Positions 286 through 18,681 of a DNA stretch of 18,754 bases are shown here, one piece after another. The notes below the pieces were generated by a model. The model was not told the DNA's origin, made no database searches, and saw only the letters and a program-made list of their open reading frames with translations. Origin of the DNA: Candidatus Desantisbacteria bacterium CG1_02_38_46 (GTDB lineage Bacteria; Desantisbacteria; UBA1551; UBA1559); the NCBI GenBank assembly GCA_001871015.1, contig MNUO01000132.1, forward strand, positions 1-18,754, in the 5' to 3' direction. The first letter of the stretch is position 1. Every line of letters begins with the position of its first letter. The translations under genes and the position numbers were made by a program.

Positions 286-2043
286 TCAAGCATTTCTATA
301 GTTCATCCTTCTATTTAGTATGGGTATCTGGGTAGAAACTAGAAAGTCGAGGCAAAACCCACTGCGGTACGCCGCCATTGACGATACCACACCAGAAGAT
401 TCAGTTATATGCAAAGGTAAGCTGTAAGTAATATGGACCTTCCCGTTGTGTTCAATATCCACCTTTTTAATTATTGCCTGGAGAAGATTTTTTCTCGCAT
501 CGCTGGGAGCAACGTCAAAACAATCGGCAAATTGAACTATAAGATTTTCTGCTATGCTTGCGTCAGAATCAGCATAGACTGTCTCCATCTTTTTCGTCTG
601 AACAGTAGTTATCTCGCTCTCAATCTCTCTTTCGCGATCTACAATCATCTTAACTTGCTTGCTGAATTCATCCAGCGAAATAGATTCCTTTCTTAAAGAG
701 AAATACAAATTTTCTCTTTTACTTTCCAATAAATTCTTTTCCTCGAGAAGTTCTCGCTCTTTCTGAGCGAAAATCTCAATATCCCCTGATGCTCGCTGTT
801 TTATTTTTTCCACCACTTCTTTTATCTCTGGAAGATCATACTTCAAATTCTTAACCTGCTCTATCAGGAATGACTCTATTGTTTCCTGCCGGATAGATTT
901 AAACCTGCAATCTTTACAATGTTCAGTGAGCATCTCGCCTTTATTGAGCCCTCGTATCCTTTTCCAGACCAGTGGATTGCAACGGTAATACCGGTCTACT
1001 CTGCATTCTTTTCCTTCTGATACCTCTCTTTCCTTTTTCCATCCTTCCAGGCGTACTCCACAGGGATGGAAATACAGAAGACCACTGAACATATAATTTT
1101 CTTGCCTTCCCCTGATATTAATTTTTCTATTTGATTTAAGCCTTTCCTGAACTGCGTCAAATATATCTCTGGGAATTATCGAGGGAAGAGCGTCCCTCTT
1201 AATAATCCACTCCCTTTCAGGTCTTTTTTTAGTAATAACCCCTTCTCCCGTTCGCTTAATTCGATATTTATTCCATGTATAAGTTCCACAACAGATAGGG
1301 TTGGAAAGTATACTTCTTACAGCTTCCGCATTCCATGCTTTCCCGCCCAATGTTTTTCCTGTTTTAGTAATATGCTTTTTAGTCCTGTATCCTTTTTTGT
1401 TGAGCCATTCAGCTATTTTCCAACATCCCATTTCTTTTTTTGTCTCAGGATCACCGCTGTAATATAAATCAAAAATAAATCGTACAATTGCAGCTCCTTC
1501 TTCATCGATAACCCACTTGTCATCTACTATTCTATAACCCTCGGGAACTGTCCCGCCATTATAATTGCATTCCTTTGCTTTACCTAACATTCCCATATAT
1601 GCCCGCTCTCCGATCCTGTCACTTTCAAATTCTGCAAAAGAAGCAAGTATGTTAAACATCAACCTGCCTGTAGAACCTGTAGTATCAAAAGACTCCGTAA
1701 ATGAAACAAACTTAATATCCAACTGTTTAAGCTTCTCTACAATCTCATACATATTTATGAGACTTCTACTCATCCGATCAAGTTTGTGCGCAACTACAAC
1801 ATCAAATAATCGCAATTGAGCTTCTTTAAATAATTCGGTGAGTTCTTCGCGCTGGATATTTCTCCCGGATTCTGCATCTTTGTAGACCTTATAAATTTCC
1901 CAACCTTTAGCTTTGCAGAAATCCCGGCAGACTCGTTCCTGTTCTTCTAAAGAAATTCCTTCTTTGGCTTGATCCGCTGTAGAAACCCGAACGTAAATGG
2001 CGGCCCGAATAGGTTTCTCTTTCTCTTCCTCTATCTCCTTCAC
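286..2043 (-). CDS. Large serine recombinase (resolvase/invertase superfamily)
   Basis: 585 aa, the usual size for large serine integrases and transposases. It cuts and rejoins DNA through a 5'-phosphoserine intermediate and probably moves or integrates this element. The catalytic domain (about 12-150) has YVRVS with nucleophile Ser21 and Arg19, then HKLDRMSR (Arg90, Arg93). A Recombinase domain follows (about 160-260, with PEGYRI and ILSNPICCGTY). After it comes a zinc ribbon with paired cysteines (about 335-385, ending CKDCRF) and a long coiled-coil helix (about 400-490) of the type that controls synapsis. The start is GTG, chosen because GGAGG lies about 7 bases upstream. It has its own sigma-70 promoter and is the last minus-strand gene before a terminator. 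No att site could be identified. It may mobilise the upstream operon, but that is inference. Confidence 0.95.
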   Translation of the reverse strand: MKEIEEEKEKPIRAAIYVRVSTADQAKEGISLEEQERVCRDFCKAKGWEIYKVYKDAESGRNIQREELTELFKEAQLRLFDVVVAHKLDRMSRSLINMYEIVEKLKQLDIKFVSFTESFDTTGSTGRLMFNILASFAEFESDRIGERAYMGMLGKAKECNYNGGTVPEGYRIVDDKWVIDEEGAAIVRFIFDLYYSGDPETKKEMGCWKIAEWLNKKGYRTKKHITKTGKTLGGKAWNAEAVRSILSNPICCGTYTWNKYRIKRTGEGVITKKRPEREWIIKRDALPSIIPRDIFDAVQERLKSNRKINIRGRQENYMFSGLLYFHPCGVRLEGWKKEREVSEGKECRVDRYYRCNPLVWKRIRGLNKGEMLTEHCKDCRFKSIRQETIESFLIEQVKNLKYDLPEIKEVVEKIKQRASGDIEIFAQKERELLEEKNLLESKRENLYFSLRKESISLDEFSKQVKMIVDREREIESEITTVQTKKMETVYADSDASIAENLIVQFADCFDVAPSDARKNLLQAIIKKVDIEHNGKVHITYSLPLHITESSGVVSSMAAYRSGFCLDFLVSTQIPILNRRMNYRNA

Positions 2044-2428: not shown

Positions 2429-2905
2429 TCACTTCAAAACAATTCTAATTGAAGCAGGACTTTTATCAGTCTTCTCCTGATTGCAACCTTCCCACTCTTT
2501 TAATTTTTGAATTAAATTATAATCAACGCTTTTAAATCTAAGTTCTATATGAAAAGGACTTAATTCCAGATTATCTGTATTAATGGATAAAAGTTTTCTC
2601 TCTATTTTTTCTATCATTTGTTCTATTCGTTTTATTTCTTCTTTCAGCCTCTGTTTTTCTCTGATTAAACTTAGAAAATATTTACTGGAAGAAGAGGGAT
2701 CGAAAACTCCAGAATGGAAAAGTGCCATTATCGAAGGAGAAAATCCCTGAAGGTTGACTTGTATGTTACCATCGGGAAAAAATATAACCATGTAGGATTC
2801 TTCAAGAATTTTTTTCTCTTCCTCTGTGCCTTTAAACTCTTTCTTGAAGGCTTCCCACCTCTTACAGCATCCCTCAATATATGATAAGGCATATTTCCAA
2901 TTCAT
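2429..2905 (-). CDS. Unknown protein with central coiled coil, downstream of the E1-JAB gene
   Basis: 158 aa, not recognised. The ATG is preceded by AGGTAGGG, which overlaps the stop codon of the JAB-E1 gene; the gap is 6 bases, so translation is probably coupled. The N-terminal part (about 1-80) has a helix with tandem cysteines (EGCCKRWEAF) and a beta-rich segment including YMVIFFPDGNIQVNLQGF. Residues about 80-110 are a charged heptad-like helix (REKQRLKEEIKRIEQMIEKI). The C-terminal part has a beta segment (FHIELRF) and ends in RIVLK. There is no membrane segment or catalytic motif. Its place directly after the E1 suggests a partner, substrate or regulator of the conjugation pathway; this is inference from context only. 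Confidence 0.75.
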   Translation of the reverse strand: MNWKYALSYIEGCCKRWEAFKKEFKGTEEEKKILEESYMVIFFPDGNIQVNLQGFSPSIMALFHSGVFDPSSSSKYFLSLIREKQRLKEEIKRIEQMIEKIERKLLSINTDNLELSPFHIELRFKSVDYNLIQKLKEWEGCNQEKTDKSPASIRIVLK

Positions 2906-2911
2906 TTCACC

Positions 2912-4354
2912 CTACCTATTTAAAATTTTTATTTTTAGATTAGGCTTATAATCGCCTGTAGCAAGAATGCTCTCTTCATTTAACCTGCAACATGTGCAAT
3001 CCGATTTCTGACTAACTTTTATATTCATCAACTTGTTTTCCATTGCATCATAATAAAGCCAAGGGATGGGTTTTTTGATTCCGCATATCCAACAGCAAAT
3101 TTCCCACATGGCAATCCCGATGCCTATCCCATTAAGAGGCATTATTTGAGGAGCAGGATTCTGGTCAGTACCTTCAATATAACCTGCTGTTTTTCTCGAT
3201 TCCCTTAATTCCTCTGACATTAATCCCATCTGGATTTCTTCTTCATCCATCGAACCATGGCATCTCAGACAGGGATACTCAGATTCTCTGGGAATAAACC
3301 ATTGAATCTGGGTTCCCGCACTTTTTATCAAACTGCCATCCTTATCCATGGATATGCCTGTGGATACATTCACAAGAGGTTTTCCATACCGAGCACAAAA
3401 ACTATTAAGAGATACCCTCGTCCCATCATTGTCTACTGTCATGATTATCAAATCCACTTCTTTTAAAATCTCTTCTGCTTTTTCATCCAAAACACTTCCA
3501 TAATAACATTGGACAGTGGCATTTGGATTAAAACATTGATACTTTTTCATAACAAATTCAGCTTTTAGTTTACCTCTCGCTTTTTGTGGTAAATCAGTTC
3601 CGTAAAATCTGTTACAATTATCTTCTGAAATTCTATCAAAATCCATTAAAATAACATCTTCAAATCCTATTCTGGCCATCTGGTACACTATGCCTGAACC
3701 TAAACCACCAACACCAACAACTGCCACTTTTATCTTTGAAATCTTCGATGTATTTTCGTTTCCAAATGCAAGAATATTCTTCCTGAAAATTTCTTTGAAA
3801 TCATTAATTGATATTTGAACATCGAATTCCTTACCGGAATTTAAAATTTTTATTCCCTGAGGTCCCACAATTTCAATAGAATCAAAGTAAACAAATTTTT
3901 TATCCTTATCCATATATCTTGCCTTAAAATAATTTATGCTTGCCCCAAATACTATCTGGACCACCCTTATTGATGGATTGAACTGGGAAATATTTTCAAA
4001 GAGGGCAAACGCACATCTGTCATCCTCAGAAAAAAAATTAGGCTGCTTGCCGGACTCGGTAAATTTATGCCAGTGTAAATTAACCACAGTGTTAGCGCCT
4101 TCTTTTCTGAATAAATTCTGTAATTTGCACGTAAAATGTGGGTTAGGTTCAACAAAATATTCGTCCCTGTCCACTTCAGTTGAATCTGGAACAAGAACAT
4201 ATCTAACCAAATCTTTCCTTACTCCTTTTACTCTTGTAGCAAACGCTCCGCTGTATGTTACATCTTCCTTTTCATCCCCATGTGTTACAATAGCTGCCTC
4301 AAACTGATTATGCGAGAATGAAATCCTATAGTTCTCATCTCTTAAATTCAACAT
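2912..4354 (-). CDS. JAB(JAMM)-E1 fusion: ThiF-type Ubl-activating enzyme with N-terminal peptidase-like domain
   Basis: 480 aa. The N-terminal domain (about 1-170) carries a JAMM-like zinc motif: His94-x-His96 followed by Ser109-x-x-Asp112. In related proteins this domain removes ubiquitin-like modifiers or trims their tails. The second part (about 205-460) is a ThiF/MoeB/E1 adenylation domain. It has the nucleotide loop G214-x-G216-G217-x-G219-S220, MDFD at 237-240, the conserved Asn-Arg (NCNRF, 246-250), Lys262/264 and TVDND at 306-310. Cys362/365 with Cys453/455/456 would hold the structural zinc. No cysteine sits in the crossover region (GYIEGTDQNPAP, 391-402) where many E1s keep the catalytic one, so transfer may use adenylate chemistry or a cysteine elsewhere. 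The start has AAGGAGG 6 bases upstream. It follows the E2 and Ubl genes, as in known bacterial Ubl operons. E1 assignment is secure; peptidase activity is likely. Confidence 0.92.
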   Translation of the reverse strand: MLNLRDENYRISFSHNQFEAAIVTHGDEKEDVTYSGAFATRVKGVRKDLVRYVLVPDSTEVDRDEYFVEPNPHFTCKLQNLFRKEGANTVVNLHWHKFTESGKQPNFFSEDDRCAFALFENISQFNPSIRVVQIVFGASINYFKARYMDKDKKFVYFDSIEIVGPQGIKILNSGKEFDVQISINDFKEIFRKNILAFGNENTSKISKIKVAVVGVGGLGSGIVYQMARIGFEDVILMDFDRISEDNCNRFYGTDLPQKARGKLKAEFVMKKYQCFNPNATVQCYYGSVLDEKAEEILKEVDLIIMTVDNDGTRVSLNSFCARYGKPLVNVSTGISMDKDGSLIKSAGTQIQWFIPRESEYPCLRCHGSMDEEEIQMGLMSEELRESRKTAGYIEGTDQNPAPQIMPLNGIGIGIAMWEICCWICGIKKPIPWLYYDAMENKLMNIKVSQKSDCTCCRLNEESILATGDYKPNLKIKILNR

Positions 4355-4372
4355 GGCTGCCTCCTTATCAAT

Positions 4373-4798
4373 TTAATACCTTGAACAAATATCAACGTAT
4401 TTAACTGGATTCGTTAAGTATAGTTTTATTGTTTCAACAAAACTCACTAATCCCATACTTTTGCCTAGCCCGTCTGGTTCGAAGCAGACCCATTGATATC
4501 CCAGTTTTGCCCATTCAGGTTTATCATGTGTGTGCGGCAGTCCTTCCCAGCCATGCCCTTTATTCATCTTAAGGTCAAGATCAACCATACAGACTACTGG
4601 CTGCTCGTCGTCGTAATGTTCTGGAATATGTATAAAAATCGTGATGTAAAAAAGGTTGTATCTTACCTTACTGTTTCTCAATGAATAATTAAGTATCTTC
4701 ACCCATAAACCATCTTCTTCATCGAATTCTATATTATCTCTGCCAAACATGCTGATAAGCTTTCTGATTTCTACTACCAATCGGTTCAAATTACGCAT
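4373..4798 (-). CDS. E2-like (UBC-fold) Ubl-conjugating enzyme
   Basis: 141 aa from the ATG at 4798, chosen because TAGGAG lies 7 bases upstream; a GTG 60 bases earlier lacks a ribosome site. The pattern fits prokaryotic E2 families: an N-terminal helix (3-18), a beta meander (about 23-77) with HIPEHY and a Pro before the fourth strand, then a conserved-looking His89-x-His91, and WVCF with Cys105 followed by Glu. A C-terminal helix (FVETIKLYL) and the closing N-P complete the fold. Cys105 is the best catalytic candidate; it would accept the modifier from the E1 as a thioester. Cys70 and Cys138 are less well placed. It lies 63 bases after the Ubl gene and 18 before the E1-JAB gene. The E2 call rests on motif order plus neighbours, since overall similarity to classical E2s is low. 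Confidence 0.72.
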   Translation of the reverse strand: MRNLNRLVVEIRKLISMFGRDNIEFDEEDGLWVKILNYSLRNSKVRYNLFYITIFIHIPEHYDDEQPVVCMVDLDLKMNKGHGWEGLPHTHDKPEWAKLGYQWVCFEPDGLGKSMGLVSFVETIKLYLTNPVKYVDICSRY

Positions 4799-4861
4799 GG
4801 GAAATCTCCTATTCATGAGGGGAAGAAGAAACCGACTCTTCTCCCCCTCACAGAACACCTT

Positions 4862-5068
4862 TTAGCCATTTCGCAACTGATGGACCGTTCTGATTGAATC
4901 TCCGTCCCTTAAGTCATAACTTCTGTCACAATCAATTGGTTCAAAGTCTCTGTTATTATCCAGAATTGGAATTTCTGAGGGCCCGGCATCAACCAATTCC
5001 CTGAGTCTGCTTCCCGAAACCGTCTGTGATATTTCGCGCGGTCGTCCTCTTACGTCTATCATTGGCAT
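4862..5068 (-). CDS. Ubiquitin-like beta-grasp modifier with C-terminal Gly
   Basis: 68 aa, the size of one ubiquitin domain. It starts at the ATG at 5068, where GGAGG is 9 bases upstream; a GTG 6 bases earlier is too close to it. The order is a beta hairpin (MIDVRGRPREISQTVS), a helix (GSRLRELVDAG, 19-29), a strand (EIPILD) and a C-terminal strand after the turn LRDGDSI. It ends in HQLRNG with Gly68 last, comparable to the LRGG tail of ubiquitin. The layout resembles the multiubiquitin family of bacterial beta-grasp proteins, but here as a single unit. A terminal glycine is what an E1 adenylates, so the tail seems ready for conjugation without trimming. It sits directly ahead of the E2 and E1-JAB genes. 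ThiS/MoaD-like sulphur carriers are the main alternative, but the E2 neighbour argues against them. Confidence 0.78.
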   Translation of the reverse strand: MPMIDVRGRPREISQTVSGSRLRELVDAGPSEIPILDNNRDFEPIDCDRSYDLRDGDSIRTVHQLRNG

Positions 5069-5147: not shown

Positions 5148-5459
5148 CTACTCTAAATCCTCTTCTGATATTGGACGTTCTTCCTCTCCACCACCTGGTA
5201 ATGCCGGATTGCTATCCTCGTCAATCCGCTCTTCATATCTTGTCTGTGGCAAGTCAGAGAAAAGCATTGAATCTAATTCCTCTTCCCTGAGCCCCACTTC
5301 AGGACGACCTGATGAACGAGATCCAAGTCCTCCCAGGATAAGCCCGGCAAATATACCGCCAACAAAACCTGCCGCAGCAGCCCCCGGCCCTAAAGGCAAG
5401 CCCAAAAGAGTTCCTATAAGGCCACCCTTTATTACAGTACCCGCTCCTTCGTTTCTCAT
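5148..5459 (-). CDS. Small glycine-zipper membrane protein
   Basis: 103 aa. AAAAGGAGG lies 9-10 bases before the ATG. Residues about 5-46 are hydrophobic and rich in Gly and Ala (GLIGTLLGLPLGPGAAAAGF, then VGGIFAGLILGGLG), with glycines at 4-residue spacing in places. This would form one long or two short membrane helices that pack tightly. The rest (about 50-103) is acidic and probably disordered, ending in SEEDLE, with few lysines. There is no signal peptidase site. It lies between another glycine-zipper gene and the Ubl gene. Such helices occur in anchors, channels and pore-forming proteins. Whether it is an effector, a membrane anchor for the conjugation machinery or a channel partner of the ATPase cannot be decided from the sequence. 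Confidence 0.8.
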   Translation of the reverse strand: MRNEGAGTVIKGGLIGTLLGLPLGPGAAAAGFVGGIFAGLILGGLGSRSSGRPEVGLREEELDSMLFSDLPQTRYEERIDEDSNPALPGGGEEERPISEEDLE

Positions 5460-5483: not shown

Positions 5484-6056
5484 TTACCTGCCGTGTCTGG
5501 AAAAATATGATTCATTCCTTAATTTAGCCATACGTTTTCCATTTCCTGATGAAAAAACTTCTGTGCTTTCTTCCAACGCCTCTAATGCTCCATCGCGTTG
5601 AATTTCCATAGGCTGAATTGAAATTGGTGCAAAATCTTGGGTTTGCTGGAATCTGGGAATTATCTCCTCTCTGATATTTTCCAAATCCCTGGCTGCTTGT
5701 CTCTCGTACTCTCTTTTAATTTCATCTAAAAAATTCTTAGGATAATCATCTAATAAACTATGCTGAGGAAGATATTCTGGTTTACTTATTTTGCAAGGAA
5801 ATTCTTTGTCTAAATTTTTGTTAATGATTGGATAATCCTCAAACTTGTATTTTGGCAATGGTATGTTTGATAAATAACTTGGACTTTCATTTCTATCTGA
5901 GTCTTTTCCATCATCTATTTCTTCGTCCAAATCGTTTACCAAAAGAGCTGCAGCGCCTCCGACAAGTCCAACAAGAAGCCCTATAGGCCCCATTGCTGCA
6001 CCTGCAAGTACTGAAAACCCGGCAATTGCTTTTCTCTTAGCCATATTATCAGACAT
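5484..6056 (-). CDS. Glycine-zipper membrane protein with long charged tail
   Basis: 190 aa from the ATG at 6056, which has AGGAGG 8 bases upstream; an ATG 21 bases earlier has none. The start overlaps the stop of the HerA-type gene by 8 bases, so translation is coupled. Residues about 8-38 form a Gly/Ala-rich membrane segment (AIAGFSVLAGAAMGPIGLLV, then GLVGGAAALLV), similar in character to the next gene. The following 150 residues are hydrophilic: an acidic linker (NDLDEEIDDGKDSDRNE), a middle part rich in Lys and Pro, a helix (KREYERQAARDLENIREEI) and a basic end. The coupling to HerA suggests a membrane tether or gate for that ATPase. The lysine-rich tail could also be a substrate for Ubl attachment. 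Both are inference. Confidence 0.8.
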   Translation of the reverse strand: MSDNMAKRKAIAGFSVLAGAAMGPIGLLVGLVGGAAALLVNDLDEEIDDGKDSDRNESPSYLSNIPLPKYKFEDYPIINKNLDKEFPCKISKPEYLPQHSLLDDYPKNFLDEIKREYERQAARDLENIREEIIPRFQQTQDFAPISIQPMEIQRDGALEALEESTEVFSSGNGKRMAKLRNESYFSRHGR

Positions 6057-8187
6057 TGTTACCACCTCCTGACTCAATCAATTTTTCCAACAAATTATTC
6101 CTTAAGATATCCTGCACCAATTCTAATTTTACTTTTTCTTTCATTATAATATCCGTGTTTTCTATAATCTCTTTTACCTTATCAAAAACATCTTTGCTTT
6201 TACAGGCAATAACGACAAGGGAACATCCTGCTTTAATGTCCTTTTCCAGATTTGTTTTTTCATTAACAGCACTTACTGCTACCTCTATGGCAACAATGTT
6301 TCCATCTTGTCTCTCGATTGCAATATCTACAAATTTTTCTTTTATATTACGCTCGATCTCTATCCTCCAACCTTTTTTATATTCCTTATTTATACTGTTT
6401 AACAACTCAAATATATCCCACTGCCAGAAGCAGTGTTCGAATCCGGCGCCTCTTCCAAGTGACACCTTTTTTGGCATTTCTATCGCTTTGTATCCACTAT
6501 CAGAAATTTCTAAATATTTAGCTAGCCCGCCTCTACCGCCAAGAGAAATTTCTATCTTCCTGCAAAATCCTTTCCTCACTAATAAATTCACAATTGAATT
6601 TCCACGTCCTGCTGATAATGTCTTTTCTTTATAGCGCTGGGTGATTGATATAAATGGCCTATTATAGATATCCATAAGGAACGCTTTTTCATCCGGCATC
6701 GCAATTTCATCTCGCTCAATTGTCTTTCTATCCACCTTCTTTGTTTTGATATCTACCCCTTCTTTCACGACTTCGACAGAAGCAGGGAGAGTAAACACTG
6801 GCCTGTATATCAATTCTGGTGCAAATTTTCTCATGTGTTGAATGATTTCTCCATCGGTGACATTTTTTTCTATCCTGTAAAGAGGGAATTTAACAGGGAA
6901 CGGTTTATCATATCTCCCCCCAAGCCTTATAATAGCCTGTCCTGTCTGCAGCTGATAATTAAATTCCAATTGTTCCCTGGTCAAACCCATGGATTCGCTG
7001 GCATACCTTAGGTTCCTGCCCTCAGGAAGCCTCATTAGAATCTGCGTATAGACATTTTTTGCCGAATCGCACAAGGCCCCGATCTCCTGGCATGTTACAA
7101 CAATCCCGAGGTTAAATTCCCTGGCCTGGCGCGCAAGAGAAGAAATCATAAGGCTGCCAATTCTTTCCTCCAACCACTTGTTAAAAACCTCGTTTCCTTC
7201 GTCAATTATTACCAAAACAGGGAGATGCCTCTTGTCGGGATTTGCTATCCTAAACTGAAAGAGATAGCTCAGGATAAGGCTTATGAGATAGATCCTCCCC
7301 TTTTCTCCCAGCGACGTCAGGCGAAAAACCACGTTATGCCTTTCAATAATTTTTTCAAGTTGATGGCCAGTGTTACAGTTAAACATGTCCCCGCCAGTGA
7401 AAAGTATGGACTCGAGCCTGTTTAGGGCTGATTCCCTGTAGCGGGCATCCCTGGACAGACTAAGCTCCCTTTTACTTTTTATTGAATTATATATGTAACG
7501 CAAATCGGGATAATTCTTAATTTCAGTATTTTCGTCAAAAGAACCGAACTCCTTGCAGCATTTATTAGCATGGTCAATAAAATAATTAGCCGTGCCGTCA
7601 AAATAGCTATGTGACTGGGCTGTTATCTCGGCTACGGTTACGATGCGATTTACAAGGCTGACCCCTGGCGGAGGAACAATAGGGTTGAACTTCAGTGCAT
7701 TATCGCCTCTGCAATCCAGCACAATCGTGCTGGGCAAGCGTCTGATCAAGTGCTTGCAGTCTTCCTTGATTTCAAAAACGATGCATGGAATACCGCACCG
7801 GTTGGCCCTGTCTATAATAAGGTAAAGGATGTTTGTTTTTCCTGTGCCCCTGTAGCCCATGATTACGCAGCCCCTCATCAGTTCCTCAGGGTATAACCCG
7901 AAAAAACCGCCTGATTCATGGCCTAGGGCAGATATGGCCAGCCTTATTGGTCCGTCAACCTCGCCGGGTATTGGCATGGGCCTGAAGTGATTTTCCTCAT
8001 TTGCTGCCAGTTGCAATACAGGAGCAATCCGGGCATACAATTGTCTTCGACGATCCATGTTTTCAGGATAAAGAGCAATACTCTGCCACAATCCTATTAT
8101 TACAGGATCCATGTCGAGATGAAACGGCTCTATGATTTCCTTCTTAATCAGATCGGGTGGCGCTGTAAAGAAATTGAAGTTAAGCAT
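6049..8187 (-). CDS. HerA/VirD4-type DNA-pumping ATPase with winged-helix and nuclease-like C-terminus
   Basis: 712 aa. The ASCE-type ATPase core (about 85-440) has Walker A GYRGTGKT (111-118), FNPI-x-PPPG (168-175), Walker B VLVIIDE (324-330), and the region REFNLGIVVTCQE (356-368) before the conserved RLPEGRN, all typical of the HerA/DUF87 group. These proteins form rings that move along or pump double-stranded DNA. After it comes a winged-helix-like segment (about 495-570), then a C-terminal domain (about 575-700) with FVDIAI and IVAIEVAVS. That is a D...E-x-A pattern like PD-(D/E)XK nucleases or replication-relaxation proteins; the usual Lys is replaced by Ala, so cleavage is uncertain. 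The start has a GGAGG site just upstream. It is coupled to the glycine-zipper gene. A relative without the tail lies at 17371-18681. Role in transfer, segregation or defence is open. Confidence 0.88.
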   Translation of the reverse strand: MLNFNFFTAPPDLIKKEIIEPFHLDMDPVIIGLWQSIALYPENMDRRRQLYARIAPVLQLAANEENHFRPMPIPGEVDGPIRLAISALGHESGGFFGLYPEELMRGCVIMGYRGTGKTNILYLIIDRANRCGIPCIVFEIKEDCKHLIRRLPSTIVLDCRGDNALKFNPIVPPPGVSLVNRIVTVAEITAQSHSYFDGTANYFIDHANKCCKEFGSFDENTEIKNYPDLRYIYNSIKSKRELSLSRDARYRESALNRLESILFTGGDMFNCNTGHQLEKIIERHNVVFRLTSLGEKGRIYLISLILSYLFQFRIANPDKRHLPVLVIIDEGNEVFNKWLEERIGSLMISSLARQAREFNLGIVVTCQEIGALCDSAKNVYTQILMRLPEGRNLRYASESMGLTREQLEFNYQLQTGQAIIRLGGRYDKPFPVKFPLYRIEKNVTDGEIIQHMRKFAPELIYRPVFTLPASVEVVKEGVDIKTKKVDRKTIERDEIAMPDEKAFLMDIYNRPFISITQRYKEKTLSAGRGNSIVNLLVRKGFCRKIEISLGGRGGLAKYLEISDSGYKAIEMPKKVSLGRGAGFEHCFWQWDIFELLNSINKEYKKGWRIEIERNIKEKFVDIAIERQDGNIVAIEVAVSAVNEKTNLEKDIKAGCSLVVIACKSKDVFDKVKEIIENTDIIMKEKVKLELVQDILRNNLLEKLIESGGGNNV

Positions 8188-8196
8188 CTTCTCCTC

Positions 8197-8613
8197 CTAT
8201 CTAAATCCCAGCAACCTAAGGAGCCCTCCTCCTCTACACCTGTTACAATAAATCTTGCCTTCTTCTATGGTGATACAGCGACTGCAAGCCAAACGACCAC
8301 ATTCACAGCACCTCGTAATACAAGAATTACAAACAATACATCCATTGAAACAAATACCCCCAAAATTCTTCCGTCCGAAGGAGAGGTGACCACAATCATA
8401 GTACCTCAGTCTAAATTCCTGAACCTCATAAATTCCGCCATAAGCATCCATAAAAGTTGTCGATACGACGTCGATTAATTTTCCGTCTTCGGCAATAGGA
8501 TTGGAGACAATTCTTTCAATAATTCTTTTCCTTTCAATGATACGAGGACCGCGCATCATAGGTGCGTTCCCATGCTGCACGATCCTTCTTTCTCCATTAT
8601 TAAATTCTCTCAT
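8197..8613 (-). CDS. Twelve-cysteine RING/FYVE-like zinc protein, candidate E3 or adaptor
   Basis: 138 aa. AAGGAGG lies about 7 bases before the ATG. The first 70 residues are basic (two ERKRIIERI-like runs), then a beta-rich part leads to Cys74-x-His76. Cysteines follow at 88, 92, 95, 98, 102, 103, 105, 110, 113, 123 and 126. Four CxxC pairs (92/95, 102/105, 110/113, 123/126) give the cross-brace order of binuclear treble-clef domains. CCECGRLACSRC matches the CxxCGxxxCxxC spacing of FYVE fingers and resembles RING. The tail LLRLLGFR is hydrophobic and basic. In an operon with Ubl, E1 and E2, a RING-like protein is the natural E3 candidate. A DNA-binding zinc ribbon partner of the adjacent HerA, 9 bases downstream, is equally allowed by the sequence. 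Confidence 0.8.
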   Translation of the reverse strand: MREFNNGERRIVQHGNAPMMRGPRIIERKRIIERIVSNPIAEDGKLIDVVSTTFMDAYGGIYEVQEFRLRYYDCGHLSFGRKNFGGICFNGCIVCNSCITRCCECGRLACSRCITIEEGKIYCNRCRGGGLLRLLGFR

Positions 8614-9656: not shown

Positions 9657-11801
9657 TTAAAAATCGTATCCCAAGGTTATAAAAGCAACTTTTTCATCAG
9701 CCTCCTGTTTAGAAATATAAAATACTCCGTCTTTGTGTTCTGGAGATATTTTGCCGTCAAGGATTAATTTCATTATATATTCACCTTTATACTTCAATTT
9801 ATAACCCATTTTTTCAAGTTTTTCACATGCATCCTTATATGGATTTTTAGAGTAAGATGAAATTGAAAAATTTATAGACAATATAGTTTTGCAATGACCA
9901 CATTCTATCTCAAATATTACACTGCTCCCATCGGGTTGAAGCGGTGATGTCTTCTTAATTTCTAAATCACCTTTTGGGAATAACGCATTACAAAAATTAC
10001 ACCTTAACTGATTTTCTTCTATTATCACTTGAAACGCTGCAACTTTTGAACACGCAGTAAGGAATATTTTTTTCCATTTTACACACATTTGAGCAGTCAC
10101 AGGATATGAAAACAAAATAAATGTATTCTTAAATTTTACTCGAACAAATTCTTTTTTTGCCACCATGGATCTAATTTCTCTGCACTTAGAGCTCTGGCAA
10201 TAAGGACACCTGCTTCTAAGTTTCTCTTTACGCACAAGCTCATTGCGAGGATTATATAGATTACCATTTTCATCTATAAAGAACAGAGCTTTCTCTCTGT
10301 TGTTTGTTTTAACTATTTCTCCATTTTCTAGACTTAACATGTCTTTTTCTAACAATAAATCTTCATAATTTTCTCTGCGAAGAATTTTCGCGACTTCTTT
10401 CTCGATGTTCTTACAATCTTCTGGGAGTATGTTTTCCTGTCTTCCAAAAGACGCTCTGTTAAAAGCAGCTGACGCTATTTCCCCTTTACATTCAGAGCAG
10501 TGATGAACCCATCTCAGGAAGTATGTTGAGACAGGAGTAATAGACTGCTCAAAATATGAAGGTCTTTGGGGAATAAGAGTATATTTGGCAAAATAATTCG
10601 TTACTGGAACTCCTTTATGAAGAGGAAGAACAAGACAAAGAGATATATCCGCGCTGTCTTTTTTGCCACAAAGCCAACACAAGTCCCTTCTGGGTCTAGG
10701 GGTTAATATTTCAGTTAAATCTGCAATTTTTATTCCAATTGTGTGACCATGGTCTTTTACAATTTCCATCTTACCAAAATCTCTTTTTTCTATTTCTTTT
10801 TTCTGAACTTTAAAAACATCACGCATTTGTTCATTGAGTATACCTTCTTCCTGATCTATGATAATTTTACCTTCAAAGACTAATTTAGCAAAATAGTCAT
10901 CCCTATATTTTAATCTGTATCCCATTTTCTCAAGATTTTTACATACATGATGCAATCCCTCACCTTTAATAGAAATAGAAGTTAAATTAAAAAACAACAC
11001 GGATTTGCAGTGTTTACAAGACATCTTAAACCTAACAACAGACCCTTCTGAACACACGGGCATAATTTTTTCAATAATTAAATCGCCCTTAGGAAATGGT
11101 ACATTACAATACCCACACATTAACTCTTTATCATGAATAATTATAGAAGGGTCCCAGGACTTTATCAAGGCAAAAAGGAATATTTTTCCATATTTATTGC
11201 ATCTTTGAGCATTAATAATGAAGGGAGACAATATAAAACTGTGTTCCATCTTTACTCTAACAAATTCCGCACTAGATATTGTAGATTCGAATTTTATGCA
11301 ATCTGGACTCTTACAAAAAAGACATCTATCCCTAAATTTGGTTTCGTGAGAAACTTCACAGTTTGGATCAATCAAATTGCCATTTTCATCAATAAAGGGT
11401 AGGGCTTTATTCTTGTCATTTGTTTTAACTATTAGTCCTTCATCTACTGTTAACATATCCTCCTTTAATAATAAATCTTCATAGTTTTTCTTTGAAAATA
11501 TTTTTTCCACTTCCTTCTCTATTGTTTTTTGCTCTTTATCAGATAAATTTCCCCTATGATGTGATTTTTCATCAGAAATCCACCTCCAATACGCATCTTT
11601 GCAATCTTGGCAGGATTCATTCCACCCAATTGTATAAGTTTCTCTAAACAAATTTTCTCTTTTATTAAGAAAGAGAAAAAGAGACTTTGGAATTATTCTG
11701 CCACAAAAAACACACGGCGTTAGTTTTTGTTTAGGAAATAAGTAACTTAACTTAGCTATTAATTTATCTCTTTTGTTACCATGGTCACTTAAAATTTTCA
11801 T
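9657..11801 (-). CDS. 714-aa protein of two tandem zinc-ribbon-rich modules, unknown function
   Basis: I know no family for this protein. It is an internal duplication: module 1 (about 6-325) and module 2 (about 350-695) share the opening DHG, a motif KNYEDLLLKEDML / ENYEDLLLEKDML, ENGNL, EFVRVK, NVPFPKGDL / NALFPKGDL and KLEKMGYKLKY. Each module has five CxxC pairs: 30/33, 64/67, 160/163, 229/232 and 262/265, matched by 375/378, 435/438, 532/535, 601/604 and 634/637. From the second pair on, the offset is 371-372 residues, so module 2 has about 26 extra residues near its start. There are no membrane helices and no catalytic motif that I recognise. Nucleic-acid or ribosome binding is plausible for so many zinc ribbons, but inferred. 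The ATG has GGAGG 9 bases upstream. The gene has its own promoter, leader frame and terminators, so it is regulated apart from the operon downstream. Confidence 0.85.
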   Translation of the reverse strand: MKILSDHGNKRDKLIAKLSYLFPKQKLTPCVFCGRIIPKSLFLFLNKRENLFRETYTIGWNESCQDCKDAYWRWISDEKSHHRGNLSDKEQKTIEKEVEKIFSKKNYEDLLLKEDMLTVDEGLIVKTNDKNKALPFIDENGNLIDPNCEVSHETKFRDRCLFCKSPDCIKFESTISSAEFVRVKMEHSFILSPFIINAQRCNKYGKIFLFALIKSWDPSIIIHDKELMCGYCNVPFPKGDLIIEKIMPVCSEGSVVRFKMSCKHCKSVLFFNLTSISIKGEGLHHVCKNLEKMGYRLKYRDDYFAKLVFEGKIIIDQEEGILNEQMRDVFKVQKKEIEKRDFGKMEIVKDHGHTIGIKIADLTEILTPRPRRDLCWLCGKKDSADISLCLVLPLHKGVPVTNYFAKYTLIPQRPSYFEQSITPVSTYFLRWVHHCSECKGEIASAAFNRASFGRQENILPEDCKNIEKEVAKILRRENYEDLLLEKDMLSLENGEIVKTNNREKALFFIDENGNLYNPRNELVRKEKLRSRCPYCQSSKCREIRSMVAKKEFVRVKFKNTFILFSYPVTAQMCVKWKKIFLTACSKVAAFQVIIEENQLRCNFCNALFPKGDLEIKKTSPLQPDGSSVIFEIECGHCKTILSINFSISSYSKNPYKDACEKLEKMGYKLKYKGEYIMKLILDGKISPEHKDGVFYISKQEADEKVAFITLGYDF

Positions 11802-16196: not shown

Positions 16197-17288
16197 TCAG
16201 GCAAACCTCAACTGCAAAACCACGTTCAGCATTTCTGGTTCAAAGAGATGGGTTATACGGTTAGTGTATGTCCTGTTGACCTTTACCTGTGAAATAAGAA
16301 TCAGGCCGCTTGCCTGCAAATAGCTGAGAGCTGTGCAGAAATGGGTATAAGAGAAAGGGTCCTCGCCTTTGTCCAGGCTTATTTTTCTGTATCTCTGGTA
16401 CACGCTTCTGGCGTATCCTTCCTTTTCTTCCTGAATCGCCTGCAGGATAAGAATCATCCTGTCGTTCAAGCCCTGGATTAATTCCCGGATTATGTCCCGG
16501 CGCGCCCTTTCAAAAGCATCCTCTACCTTCAAGTCTGTTTCAGTAGCACAGTAAAAAAGAGTCTTTATGGCCATGCGGACATCACTGTTTGTCTGCTGCG
16601 CTGTAATTGCCGCTACCTGCCGCAACATTCCCTCATCGTAATCCACCATTCCTTTCTCTGCTCGCTGCTTCAAAATTTCAAATATCTGGATGGCATTATA
16701 TGGCTTAAAATATGTTACCTCCATCTGAAGGCTTGAACGGCAGGTCTCATCTACTTCTCGGAGAAATCTGGGATTATTCGAAAGAAGAATAAGCATTACA
16801 TTAGATTTGGACCGGTTGCTGAAATAGAGTATTTCTTTTCTCGGATCCTTTGGCGACAGCATGTCTATTTCATCCAATACCAGAACAGTTTTGTCTTTAA
16901 ATTTTTGCTCAAAACTATTTTCTAATTCTGATAAAGATAATCCCCTTGCCTGCATATCAAGTAGATATGCCAAAATCTTAAAGGAAGTATTGTAACTACG
17001 CACATTCACATATTTGAAAGAAAGATCGTACTCTTTTTCAAAAAGTTTCTGAAGGAATTTGAGTATCGAGGTCTTCCCACAACCCGAAGAACCTAGGATG
17101 CAGATATTATTCGGGATAAAAGTTTTCTTGTACCTCAGAATAGCGTCAATCAGAGGTCCAACTTCCTCCCTCATTAAAGGTTTCTCGGGAATATAATTAA
17201 AGGTATCGAAAACAAGAAAATCTCTAATTTTTTTACTCTCAGTTTCCACTCTTTCCTCTCTACCCTTTAGATACTGCTCAATGTCCAT
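16197..17288 (-). CDS. Orc1/Cdc6-like AAA+ ATPase
   Basis: 363 aa from the ATG at 17288, 6 bases after GAGGTG; a GTG 9 bases earlier overlaps that site. The AAA+ core (about 25-245) has Walker A GSSGCGKTS (about 66-74), Walker B VLVLDEIDML (about 135-144), sensor 1 LLSNNPRFL and, in the lid, sensor 2 SDVRMAIKTL (about 235-244). A C-terminal winged-helix domain follows (about 255-360: LQAIQEE, YQRYRKIS, YTHFCTALSYLQASGLI). This order, and the wording of each motif, is that of archaeal/eukaryotic Orc1/Cdc6 initiators, with the size right for archaeal ones. In this bacterial context it probably loads or positions a replication or partition complex of the element. It is in one unit with the truncated HerA-like gene upstream, 82 bases away. 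A transposon-type AAA ATPase is the alternative, but the winged-helix tail argues for Orc1/Cdc6. Confidence 0.87.
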   Translation of the reverse strand: MDIEQYLKGREERVETESKKIRDFLVFDTFNYIPEKPLMREEVGPLIDAILRYKKTFIPNNICILGSSGCGKTSILKFLQKLFEKEYDLSFKYVNVRSYNTSFKILAYLLDMQARGLSLSELENSFEQKFKDKTVLVLDEIDMLSPKDPRKEILYFSNRSKSNVMLILLSNNPRFLREVDETCRSSLQMEVTYFKPYNAIQIFEILKQRAEKGMVDYDEGMLRQVAAITAQQTNSDVRMAIKTLFYCATETDLKVEDAFERARRDIIRELIQGLNDRMILILQAIQEEKEGYARSVYQRYRKISLDKGEDPFSYTHFCTALSYLQASGLILISQVKVNRTYTNRITHLFEPEMLNVVLQLRFA

Positions 17289-17370
17289 CAATATCACCTC
17301 GTTTAAACTACACTTAACGCATAAACCACTGGCGATTTATAAACTTTTGCATTTCTAACATATTAGTGGT

Positions 17371-18681
17371 CTATAGTTCTGAAATAGATTTCTCCTGATT
17401 TTCCAGCAATTTCCTTGTCTGGTCGGTGAGCCGAATAATTCGTAACCTACCATTTTGAGTGGGCAAATCCTCCTGCAGAAACAATCCCTTGGCAAGCAGG
17501 CACCTTTTTATCTTATCCCCCTGCCTGCAGCTTATATGCATTCGATTATATCGTTCTACTGTACCACTACGTGGATAATTGAAAACATCCAAGAGAAATT
17601 GTTTTTCTCTTTCAGAAAGAGTGTTTGCAGGCTCGCTTGCCTTGTCCTGCACTTCGATGGATTCATTTTCTGAACCTTCCACCAACTGAGGTTGGAAATT
17701 TGAAAAATAGGTTTTCATCCTTCTTTTAATAAAGGTATCATCTACACTCCCTTTTTGAATTGGAAATTCTGGTATGTGTATCATAAACGGTGAAAGAATC
17801 CTACCCTGCAGTTTTACAATTGCCTCTCCCACTTCGAGTTTTCCCAAATATTCTTTCTGCTCATTATCAAGTAGCATAGCGCTCGCCGCAGAAGACACAT
17901 CCTGTTTATTTTTTAGATTCATAGCTATCGTGCAATAACTATTTGCCATTGCTACTGGCGAAATCTGAGATGGCATTTGATCCACTACAACGAAGGATTG
18001 ATTCAACTCTCTTAATTCCTTAATTGCGACTATAATCACTGACTCCCCACCAAAGAGACTATGCCTCTCTCCACTCAAAATATGGTGCGCCTCTTCGCAG
18101 ATTATGCAGTGTGAAAAATTCTCTCTTTCCGGCCGGGTCAATCTGTAATCATGAATCCAGAGGATTAAGGATTCAATAAAAAATATTTTGTCAGATTGCG
18201 TGAGAGCGTCCAGCTCAAGAATTACCTTTTGTTTAAGGATTTCTTCCATACCATAGTTCTGCCCACTGTTTACAACACTGTCCATACTGCCAAAACACAG
18301 GGAGGCAGTAGCCCTCATAGCACTCGTGAGCCAATTGGTTTCTCTGCCTTGTGCAGGATAGTTTTTAAGCCATTCGTGAATGTCGCGGAACGTAGGATAT
18401 TTCGTCGCGTTTCCTGTATATATCCCATACTTTTTGTATGCATCGTCTATTGCCTGCTGCAGAAGGTAAATAACTCCGTTCCCAAGGCAGTATGCATGCG
18501 CTATAACCTCAATTAATTTCTTAAGCCATGCCTTTGGATCTGCATCAGGAGGAGGAATCAAAGGATTAAACCTAAATGGAGAAATGTTTCGCCCAACTGT
18601 AAACACCAGTAAATCTTCGAATTCAGGCCTCGTCATCAAGTCTTTTCCATTCCTCTTCCAATTTGAATTACCCCGCGGCAA
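17371..18681 (-). CDS. HerA-like ATPase missing its Walker A half (5'-truncated)
   Basis: 436 aa from a TTG; the ATG at codon 16 is an alternative. Residues about 20-320 match the middle and second half of a HerA/DUF87 ATPase: FRFNPLIPPPDADPKAWLKK, a long helical insert, HCIICEEAHHIL at about 190-201 as Walker B, LNQSFVVVDQMPSQIS and GEAIVKLQGR. A winged-helix tail (about 355-425) matches the part of the 712-aa protein that precedes its nuclease-like domain. The Walker A loop and about 150 preceding residues are absent. Upstream the frame meets a stop close to the window edge, and the junction is a set of perfect hairpins. A further frame (KLEEEWKRL) just before the start looks coding, so a frameshift or hairpin insertion may have split a full gene. 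Without Walker A it cannot hydrolyse ATP alone. It is co-transcribed with the Orc1/Cdc6-like gene. Confidence 0.72.
   Translation of the reverse strand: MPRGNSNWKRNGKDLMTRPEFEDLLVFTVGRNISPFRFNPLIPPPDADPKAWLKKLIEVIAHAYCLGNGVIYLLQQAIDDAYKKYGIYTGNATKYPTFRDIHEWLKNYPAQGRETNWLTSAMRATASLCFGSMDSVVNSGQNYGMEEILKQKVILELDALTQSDKIFFIESLILWIHDYRLTRPERENFSHCIICEEAHHILSGERHSLFGGESVIIVAIKELRELNQSFVVVDQMPSQISPVAMANSYCTIAMNLKNKQDVSSAASAMLLDNEQKEYLGKLEVGEAIVKLQGRILSPFMIHIPEFPIQKGSVDDTFIKRRMKTYFSNFQPQLVEGSENESIEVQDKASEPANTLSEREKQFLLDVFNYPRSGTVERYNRMHISCRQGDKIKRCLLAKGLFLQEDLPTQNGRLRIIRLTDQTRKLLENQEKSISEL

Follow-up and report, generated by a model that had tools for sequence, protein, structure and literature searches.

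Three genes that follow each other on the minus strand form a compact cassette within the window, which is the whole stretch of DNA analysed and an entire contig (C50) of 18,754 bases. In order along that strand they encode a ubiquitin-like (Ubl) protein of 68 residues with a predicted beta-grasp fold that ends at Gly68 (4862..5068), an E2/RWD-like protein of 141 residues with Cys105 in a YQWVCF motif (4373..4798) and a 480-residue fusion of a JAB (JAMM) domain, at about residues 1-185, to a ThiF/E1 domain, at about residues 190-457 (2912..4354). Shine-Dalgarno-like sequences, AAAGGAGGTG for the Ubl, ATAGGAG for the E2-like protein and AAGGAGG for JAB-E1, support the ATG starts. The arrangement is as an earlier note on this DNA had described it, with three ORFs at this place reading in one direction and separated by short gaps of 63 and 18 nt.

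The cassette is embedded in a larger block of genes on the same strand. Only 6 nt downstream of JAB-E1 lies a coiled-coil-like ORF of 158 residues (2429..2905), a probable operon member for which no homologue was found in the searches run, and a large serine recombinase (286..2043; Resolvase E 1.5e-36, Recombinase E 1.7e-20) occupies the downstream end of the block. Directly upstream of the Ubl is a 103-residue hydrophobic glycine-zipper protein (5148..5459), which has a Shine-Dalgarno sequence and one hydrophobic segment (23-47). It is preceded by a second glycine-zipper hydrophobic protein of up to 197 residues (5484..6077), with one hydrophobic segment (17-50) and a true start that probably lies inside the ORF. 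Next comes a HerA-like ATPase (6049..8187), identified by matches to HerA, mad8 and CedD profiles, whose C-terminal domain resembles a PD-(D/E)xK nuclease by eye. A Cys-rich protein of 138 residues, Zn-binding-like from its sequence (8197..8613), is found upstream of HerA. The earlier note had called such neighbours unusual, and HerA, glycine-zipper and Zn-like proteins do share one block.

Two further features of the window were recorded. The first is a 714-residue Cys-rich protein (9657-11801) whose two halves appear to be duplicates, with the strings FIDENGNL and FPKGDL repeated, and for which profile searches found no family. The second is an Orc1/Cdc6-like AAA+ protein, with weak Cdc6_lid and Cdc6_C matches, beside another HerA/CedD-like ATPase (16197-17297 and 17371-18681), here in a bacterial genome.

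The host draft genome comprises 1.73 Mb in 133 contigs and is about 88% complete. Of the Rfam models, the bacterial one gives the highest score for its full SSU rRNA, at 1473 bits, which identifies the host as a bacterium; the window is a single contig and its assignment to this genome therefore rests on binning. The cassette is absent from the one other genome of the host's order that was compared. No tRNA was found in the window, and a circular contig was ruled out by the absence of a terminal repeat. The cassette probably sits on a mobile element, the ends of which were not found on a contig that stops on both sides, and this counts against the interpretation favoured below.

Relationship to type 6e and Bub operons

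Operons classified as type 6e by Iyer et al. in 2006 combine one or more Ubls, an E2/RWD-like protein that lacks the Cys, a JAB-E1 protein and a metal-binding protein (PMC1779556). The family has been named Bub by the Corbett laboratory, with 544 operons catalogued (PMC13373217), and according to the same 2026 paper protection against phage has not been demonstrated for Bub operons (PMC13373217).

The window Ubl ends in QLRNG. Its C-terminus had been proposed to be already mature, which is borne out by a terminal Gly column that is invariant in 10 aligned Ubls and by the absence of a tail in the window protein. Short tails past the Gly occur in the Ubls of some relatives; tail-less Ubls are found in the window, the G365/JZ-2 metagenome-assembled genomes (MAGs), Microcystis, Aphanizomenonaceae, Salinigranum and G087. 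The AlphaFold2 model of the 68-residue protein, built from a two-sequence alignment, is a beta-grasp with a pLDDT of 88.7, in line with the fold that had been expected. Foldseek gave structures of Citrobacter multi-ubiquitin proteins as its first matches to this model (E 0.011, probability 1.0). With VIA-align, the top five were bacterial multi-ubiquitin entries (Z 8.1 to 7.4, rmsd 1.9-2.2, about 62 residues), with ubiquitin, ISG15 and ThiS-like folds ranked below them. A Z near 8 is weak by itself, and the match to a Bub-like Ubl is accepted because rank, coverage and gene context agree.

The JAB-E1 protein matches both Pfam ThiF (E 2e-32) and Citrobacter BubCD (9ea4, E 3e-12), and its earlier reading as a JAMM-E1 fusion is upheld by E30, the HxH at 94-96, D111 and the GxGGxG at 214-219. 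Within a nine-sequence alignment of JAB-E1 proteins the JAMM residues E30, H94, H96 and D111 are invariant, as are the nucleotide-site residues G214, G216, G217, G219, D238, D240, N246, R249, K264 and D308. The JAMM serine is shifted by one residue in the window (S109-E-D111-D112), a point against the favoured interpretation. In a wider alignment of E1s, the sole invariant cysteines are C362/C365 and C453/C456, which form two CxxC pairs of the type usual at zinc sites, and there is thus no sign of a conserved catalytic Cys in the E1. An exact-peptide search for close relatives of JAB-E1 found none in 84,980 genomes. A phage origin was considered and rejected, as 50,697 phage records searched by tblastn with JAB-E1 yielded no match and scans of viral contigs returned no relative beyond two generic MoeB-like proteins.

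A function of the window JAB in removal of the Ubl, rather than in its processing, fits weakly with these sequences, because the end of the Ubl is mature, cassettes with tailed Ubls exist and the tail-less cassette of G098 has no adjacent JAB. The E1s of the G365 and G098 MAGs lack a JAB domain; for G098, both flanks are available and contain no nearby gene that reads as one.

The window cassette shares with Bub and type 6e operons the order of a beta-grasp Ubl (of one to three domains in Bub), an E2-like protein and a JAB fused N-terminally to the E1, together with a location on mobile or plasmid DNA, and both its Ubl and its JAB-E1 match Bub structures. Unlike Bub, it has Cys105 in place of Ser in the E2 and a single tail-less Ubl, and its neighbours are HerA, hydrophobic and Zn-like proteins, with none of CapW, CapH+CapP or CapK+CapS seen. 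The Zn-finger or metal-binding partner of type 6e (protein Y; DUF6527 in plasmid relatives) also has no Pfam or NCBIfam match among the window proteins scanned, whereas a DUF6527 gene is present in the Bradyrhizobium, Deinococcus and Celeribacter relatives. Since the Ubl, the JAB-E1 and the gene order agree with Bub but the Cys-less E2 and DUF6527 are not found, the cassette is classed as a variant of the family rather than a regular member of it. The Ubl, E2 and JAMM-E1 set that the earlier note had picked out stands, but as a diverged relative of the type 6e/Bub lineage already described, with the same gene order elsewhere, and not as a new kind. A separate Bub-like operon in G087 (L024) has JAB and E1 as separate genes with a Ser-type E2, and upstream of it on the opposite strand are a gene for an HTH regulator and an ImmA/IrrE-like gene, similar to CapH+CapP.

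Other systems resemble the cassette in part. Type 6d of Iyer also has a small stand-alone Ubl with a C-terminal Gly and a Cys-bearing E2, but its JAB, which carries a JAB-N domain, is separate from the E1 and is accompanied by an alpha-helical partner. BilABCD similarly combines a Ubl, a Cys-bearing E2, an E1 and a JAB protease; its JAB is separate, its Ubl has two domains and its larger E1 has a Cys domain of its own, whereas the window has JAB and E1 in one ORF and a Ubl of one domain. In Cap2 of type II CBASS the E2 is fused to the N-terminus of the E1, the position taken in the window by the JAB, with the E2 in a separate ORF. The fused JAB thus sets the cassette apart from both 6d and Bil, the one-domain Ubl from Bil, and the absence of an E1-E2 fusion from CBASS.

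Cysteine and serine in the E2-like family

The 141-residue protein scores only 12.3 bits against Pfam PF14462 (Prok-E2_E), below the 25-bit cut-off, which weighs against the favoured interpretation, and its homology is seen instead through its relatives. When 386 genomes were searched with an E1 profile, G365 and G098, two MAGs that belong to the same genus, were found to have Ubl, E2 and E1 in the same order. G098 matches a contig of the JZ-2 MAG, and a search for close relatives with an E2 alignment found one locus, that of JZ-2. The E2s of G365 and G098 share 27-28% identity with the window E2 (phmmer E 7e-9), and a profile of these three E2s aligns by hhalign over 122 columns with six ordinary Bub E2s (probability 97.8, E 9e-13). 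This full-length alignment of the subfamily supports the earlier description of an E2-like protein with Cys105. The 'HTH motif' also attributed to the protein proved to be the residues H89-T90-H91 and not a helix-turn-helix; of these H89 alone is shared, in eight of nine Cys-type E2s. An HMM of eight Cys-type E2s built without the window finds the window E2 at 21.3 bits (E 1.3e-5), as against 9.3 bits (E 0.06) for a Ser-type HMM. Profile homology suggests a UBC fold for the protein. Eukaryotic UBC E2s rank first when the Cys-type profile is compared to the PDB, at an E of only 0.17, and an AlphaFold2 model from just two rows has a pLDDT of 48, which is too poor for use, so that the place of Cys105 within the fold is not visible; this, too, counts against the favoured interpretation.

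Cys105 is invariant in a nine-row alignment of E2s from nine Cys-type cassettes. These come from the window, the two MAGs of one genus (G365/JZ-2), three cyanobacteria (Nostoc N6, Microcystis and Aphanizomenonaceae) and three haloarchaea (Natribaculum, in one of two paralogues, Salinigranum and Natrinema). Ser takes this column in 14 of the 15 ordinary Bub E2s that align clearly, a count that leaves out the poorly aligned haloarchaeal E2s of Haloarcula, Haloplanus and Halanaeroarchaeum. The Ser-type E2s are those of Deinococcus, Bradyrhizobium, Celeribacter, pKAZ5, Methylomagnum, Bosea, Nostoc 53789 and Mesorhizobium and of the genomes G087, G347, G277, G238, G249 and G373, whilst the other Natribaculum E2 has Asp at this position. 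In six ordinary Bub E2s the Ser is invariant and forms part of a W/Y-x(3)-S-x-H/K-like motif, and BubB likewise reads QRWSRH. A broad E2 alignment put the window Cys column wrongly and the Cys/Ser assignment was read from the motif, in agreement with the other E2 alignments. The window E2 reads C-F-E and is without the His of the S/C-x-H motif found in many relatives, a further point against the favoured interpretation. In a tree of the E1 domain, which is independent of the E2, the window groups with G365/JZ-2 (support 95/93), and the Cys/Ser label requires 3 changes as compared to 7.2 in shuffles, with none of 500 shuffles as low. The Ser or Cys of the 105 column is the putative nucleophile.

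The window cassette resembles the other Cys-type cassettes, in the G365/JZ-2 MAGs and on cyanobacterial and haloarchaeal plasmids, in the W/Y-x-x-x-C of the E2 and in one-domain Ubls that end at or just past the Gly. It differs in that the MAG E1s have no JAB and the cyanobacterial cassettes adjoin CRISPR genes, and E2 identity to the window is 17-28%. On the plasmids of Microcystis, Aphanizomenonaceae and Nostoc (L076, L079 and L017) the Cys-type Ubl-E2-JAB/E1 genes lie downstream of NYN-domain genes and adjoin or are near CRISPR-associated genes; for two of these plasmids the latter include type III-B cas10/cmr. Sets of Ubl, E2-like and JAB-E1 genes are also present on haloarchaeal plasmids (L019, L073, L075, L074, L082 and L084), with two Ubl-E2 pairs in Natribaculum; a 2010 survey stated that E2-like proteins had not been detected in archaea.

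HerA context and proposed function of the cassette

The context of the cassette recurs in G347, where a Cys-rich gene, a HerA split into two ORFs, a membrane protein, a Ubl, a Ser-type E2, a JAB-E1 and a serine recombinase (E 9e-39) lie on one strand. HerA, Ubl, E2, JAB-E1 and recombinase follow the order of the window, and the recombinase marks the same end of the block in both. JAB-E1 is found in only one of five genomes of the G347 genus. The C-terminal domains of the window and G347 HerA proteins are 29% identical and belong to a family present in 10 of the 386 genomes. Of ten further HerA loci, found on another G347 contig and in seven additional genomes, a single one, in G135, has an E1 nearby; the rest have no Ubl-pathway gene in their vicinity, and this occurrence of the HerA family without Ubl genes is a further point against the favoured interpretation. 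At the G135 locus (L098 111-2380), a HerA-type ATPase is immediately preceded by JAB-like (HIHPG...S...D), E1, Cys-rich and membrane-protein genes. Neither an E2 nor a Ubl was seen on this contig, which begins just before these genes. The window HerA resembles stand-alone HerAs more than it does that of G347 and this, together with the single E1 among the ten further loci, weakens the case for HerA as a fixed partner. The link between HerA and Ubl cassettes is thus recurrent but loose. A Cys-rich gene is upstream of HerA in the window, G135 and G347, and a single Zn-protein family common to all three was rejected as the similarity is not significant (E 0.2). In Sulfolobales an Urm1-like Ubl is likewise encoded beside a HerA-like ATPase, which has been proposed as its target, but no E2, JAB or E1 was described around these genes (PMC2948915). 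In two distant genomes, the membrane proteins encoded next to Ubl cassettes (L048 8001-8570 and L049 2136-2579) have a common N-terminal IPVNP[RL]G string.

Overall, the genes probably form a cassette of the Bub (Iyer type 6e) lineage for the conjugation and deconjugation of a Ubl. Its E2 is of the Cys type, and the element that carries it is probably mobile. The E1 domain would adenylate Gly68 of the already mature Ubl, and the activated Ubl would then go straight to the E2, a direct transfer that is suggested because the invariant cysteines of the E1 are only the four zinc-ligand-like ones. Cys105, at the position of Ser in most Bub E2s, would hold the Ubl as a thioester. A target would receive the Ubl from there, perhaps one that the same operon encodes, such as HerA, the glycine-zipper proteins or the 158-residue protein, and the JAB domain tethered to the E1 would remove it again. 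We infer in this way all of the chemistry, the targets and the biological role of the cassette, including conjugation and a role in defence.

The E2-like protein could instead be a non-catalytic adaptor of the RWD type, with a structural Cys105 and an E1 that passes the Ubl straight to the target. This was assumed for type 6e in 2006, when its Cys-less E2-like domain was considered probably inactive (PMC1779556), and it would agree with the Ser of many relatives, the Asp of one haloarchaeal paralogue and the window motif in which no His follows. It is nevertheless unlikely, as nine diverse cassettes have the Cys without exception and its position coincides exactly with the nearly invariant Ser of the sister E2s, the pattern expected of a nucleophile. 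The Ubl might also be a sulphur carrier like ThiS or MoaD, for which JAB-E1 would make a thiocarboxylate for biosynthesis. The E1 core is indeed ThiF/MoeB-like and the structures matched by the Ubl include ThiS, yet profile scans of the window found neither a rhodanese nor a gene of sulphur metabolism, the Ubl and JAB-E1 genes are separated by one for an E2-like protein, the best structural matches are Bub Ubls and the JAB is fused to the E1, all of which make such a carrier highly improbable.

With the conjugation chemistry kept as proposed, the role may lie in control of the mobile element, through modification of HerA or a membrane protein in DNA transfer or partition, rather than in anti-phage defence. 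HerA, hydrophobic proteins and a serine recombinase share one block in both the window and G347, JAB-like, E1 and HerA genes adjoin in G135, and the Sulfolobales Ubl has its HerA neighbour. This role is regarded as a tenable though tentative possibility, given that the HerA family stands alone in most genomes having it and that in cyanobacteria the Cys-type cassettes have type III CRISPR genes as their neighbours instead.

In a wider and more speculative proposal, which we consider doubtful, a single bacterial E2 family would exist in two catalytic states, the Cys-type and the Ser-type, related by a one-position switch. The Cys-type, in the window, haloarchaea, cyanobacteria and obscure bacterial lineages, would form ordinary thioesters and the Ser-type another linkage, and the window system would conjugate its Ubl to the HerA-type DNA pump or a membrane partner of the mobile element. 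The exchange of Cys and Ser at one column within one operon family makes the mechanism of Bub E2s directly and cheaply testable, and bears on how thioester E2s arose or decayed. Moreover, the HerA-linked context suggests a target and a role outside the defence settings that are usually assumed.
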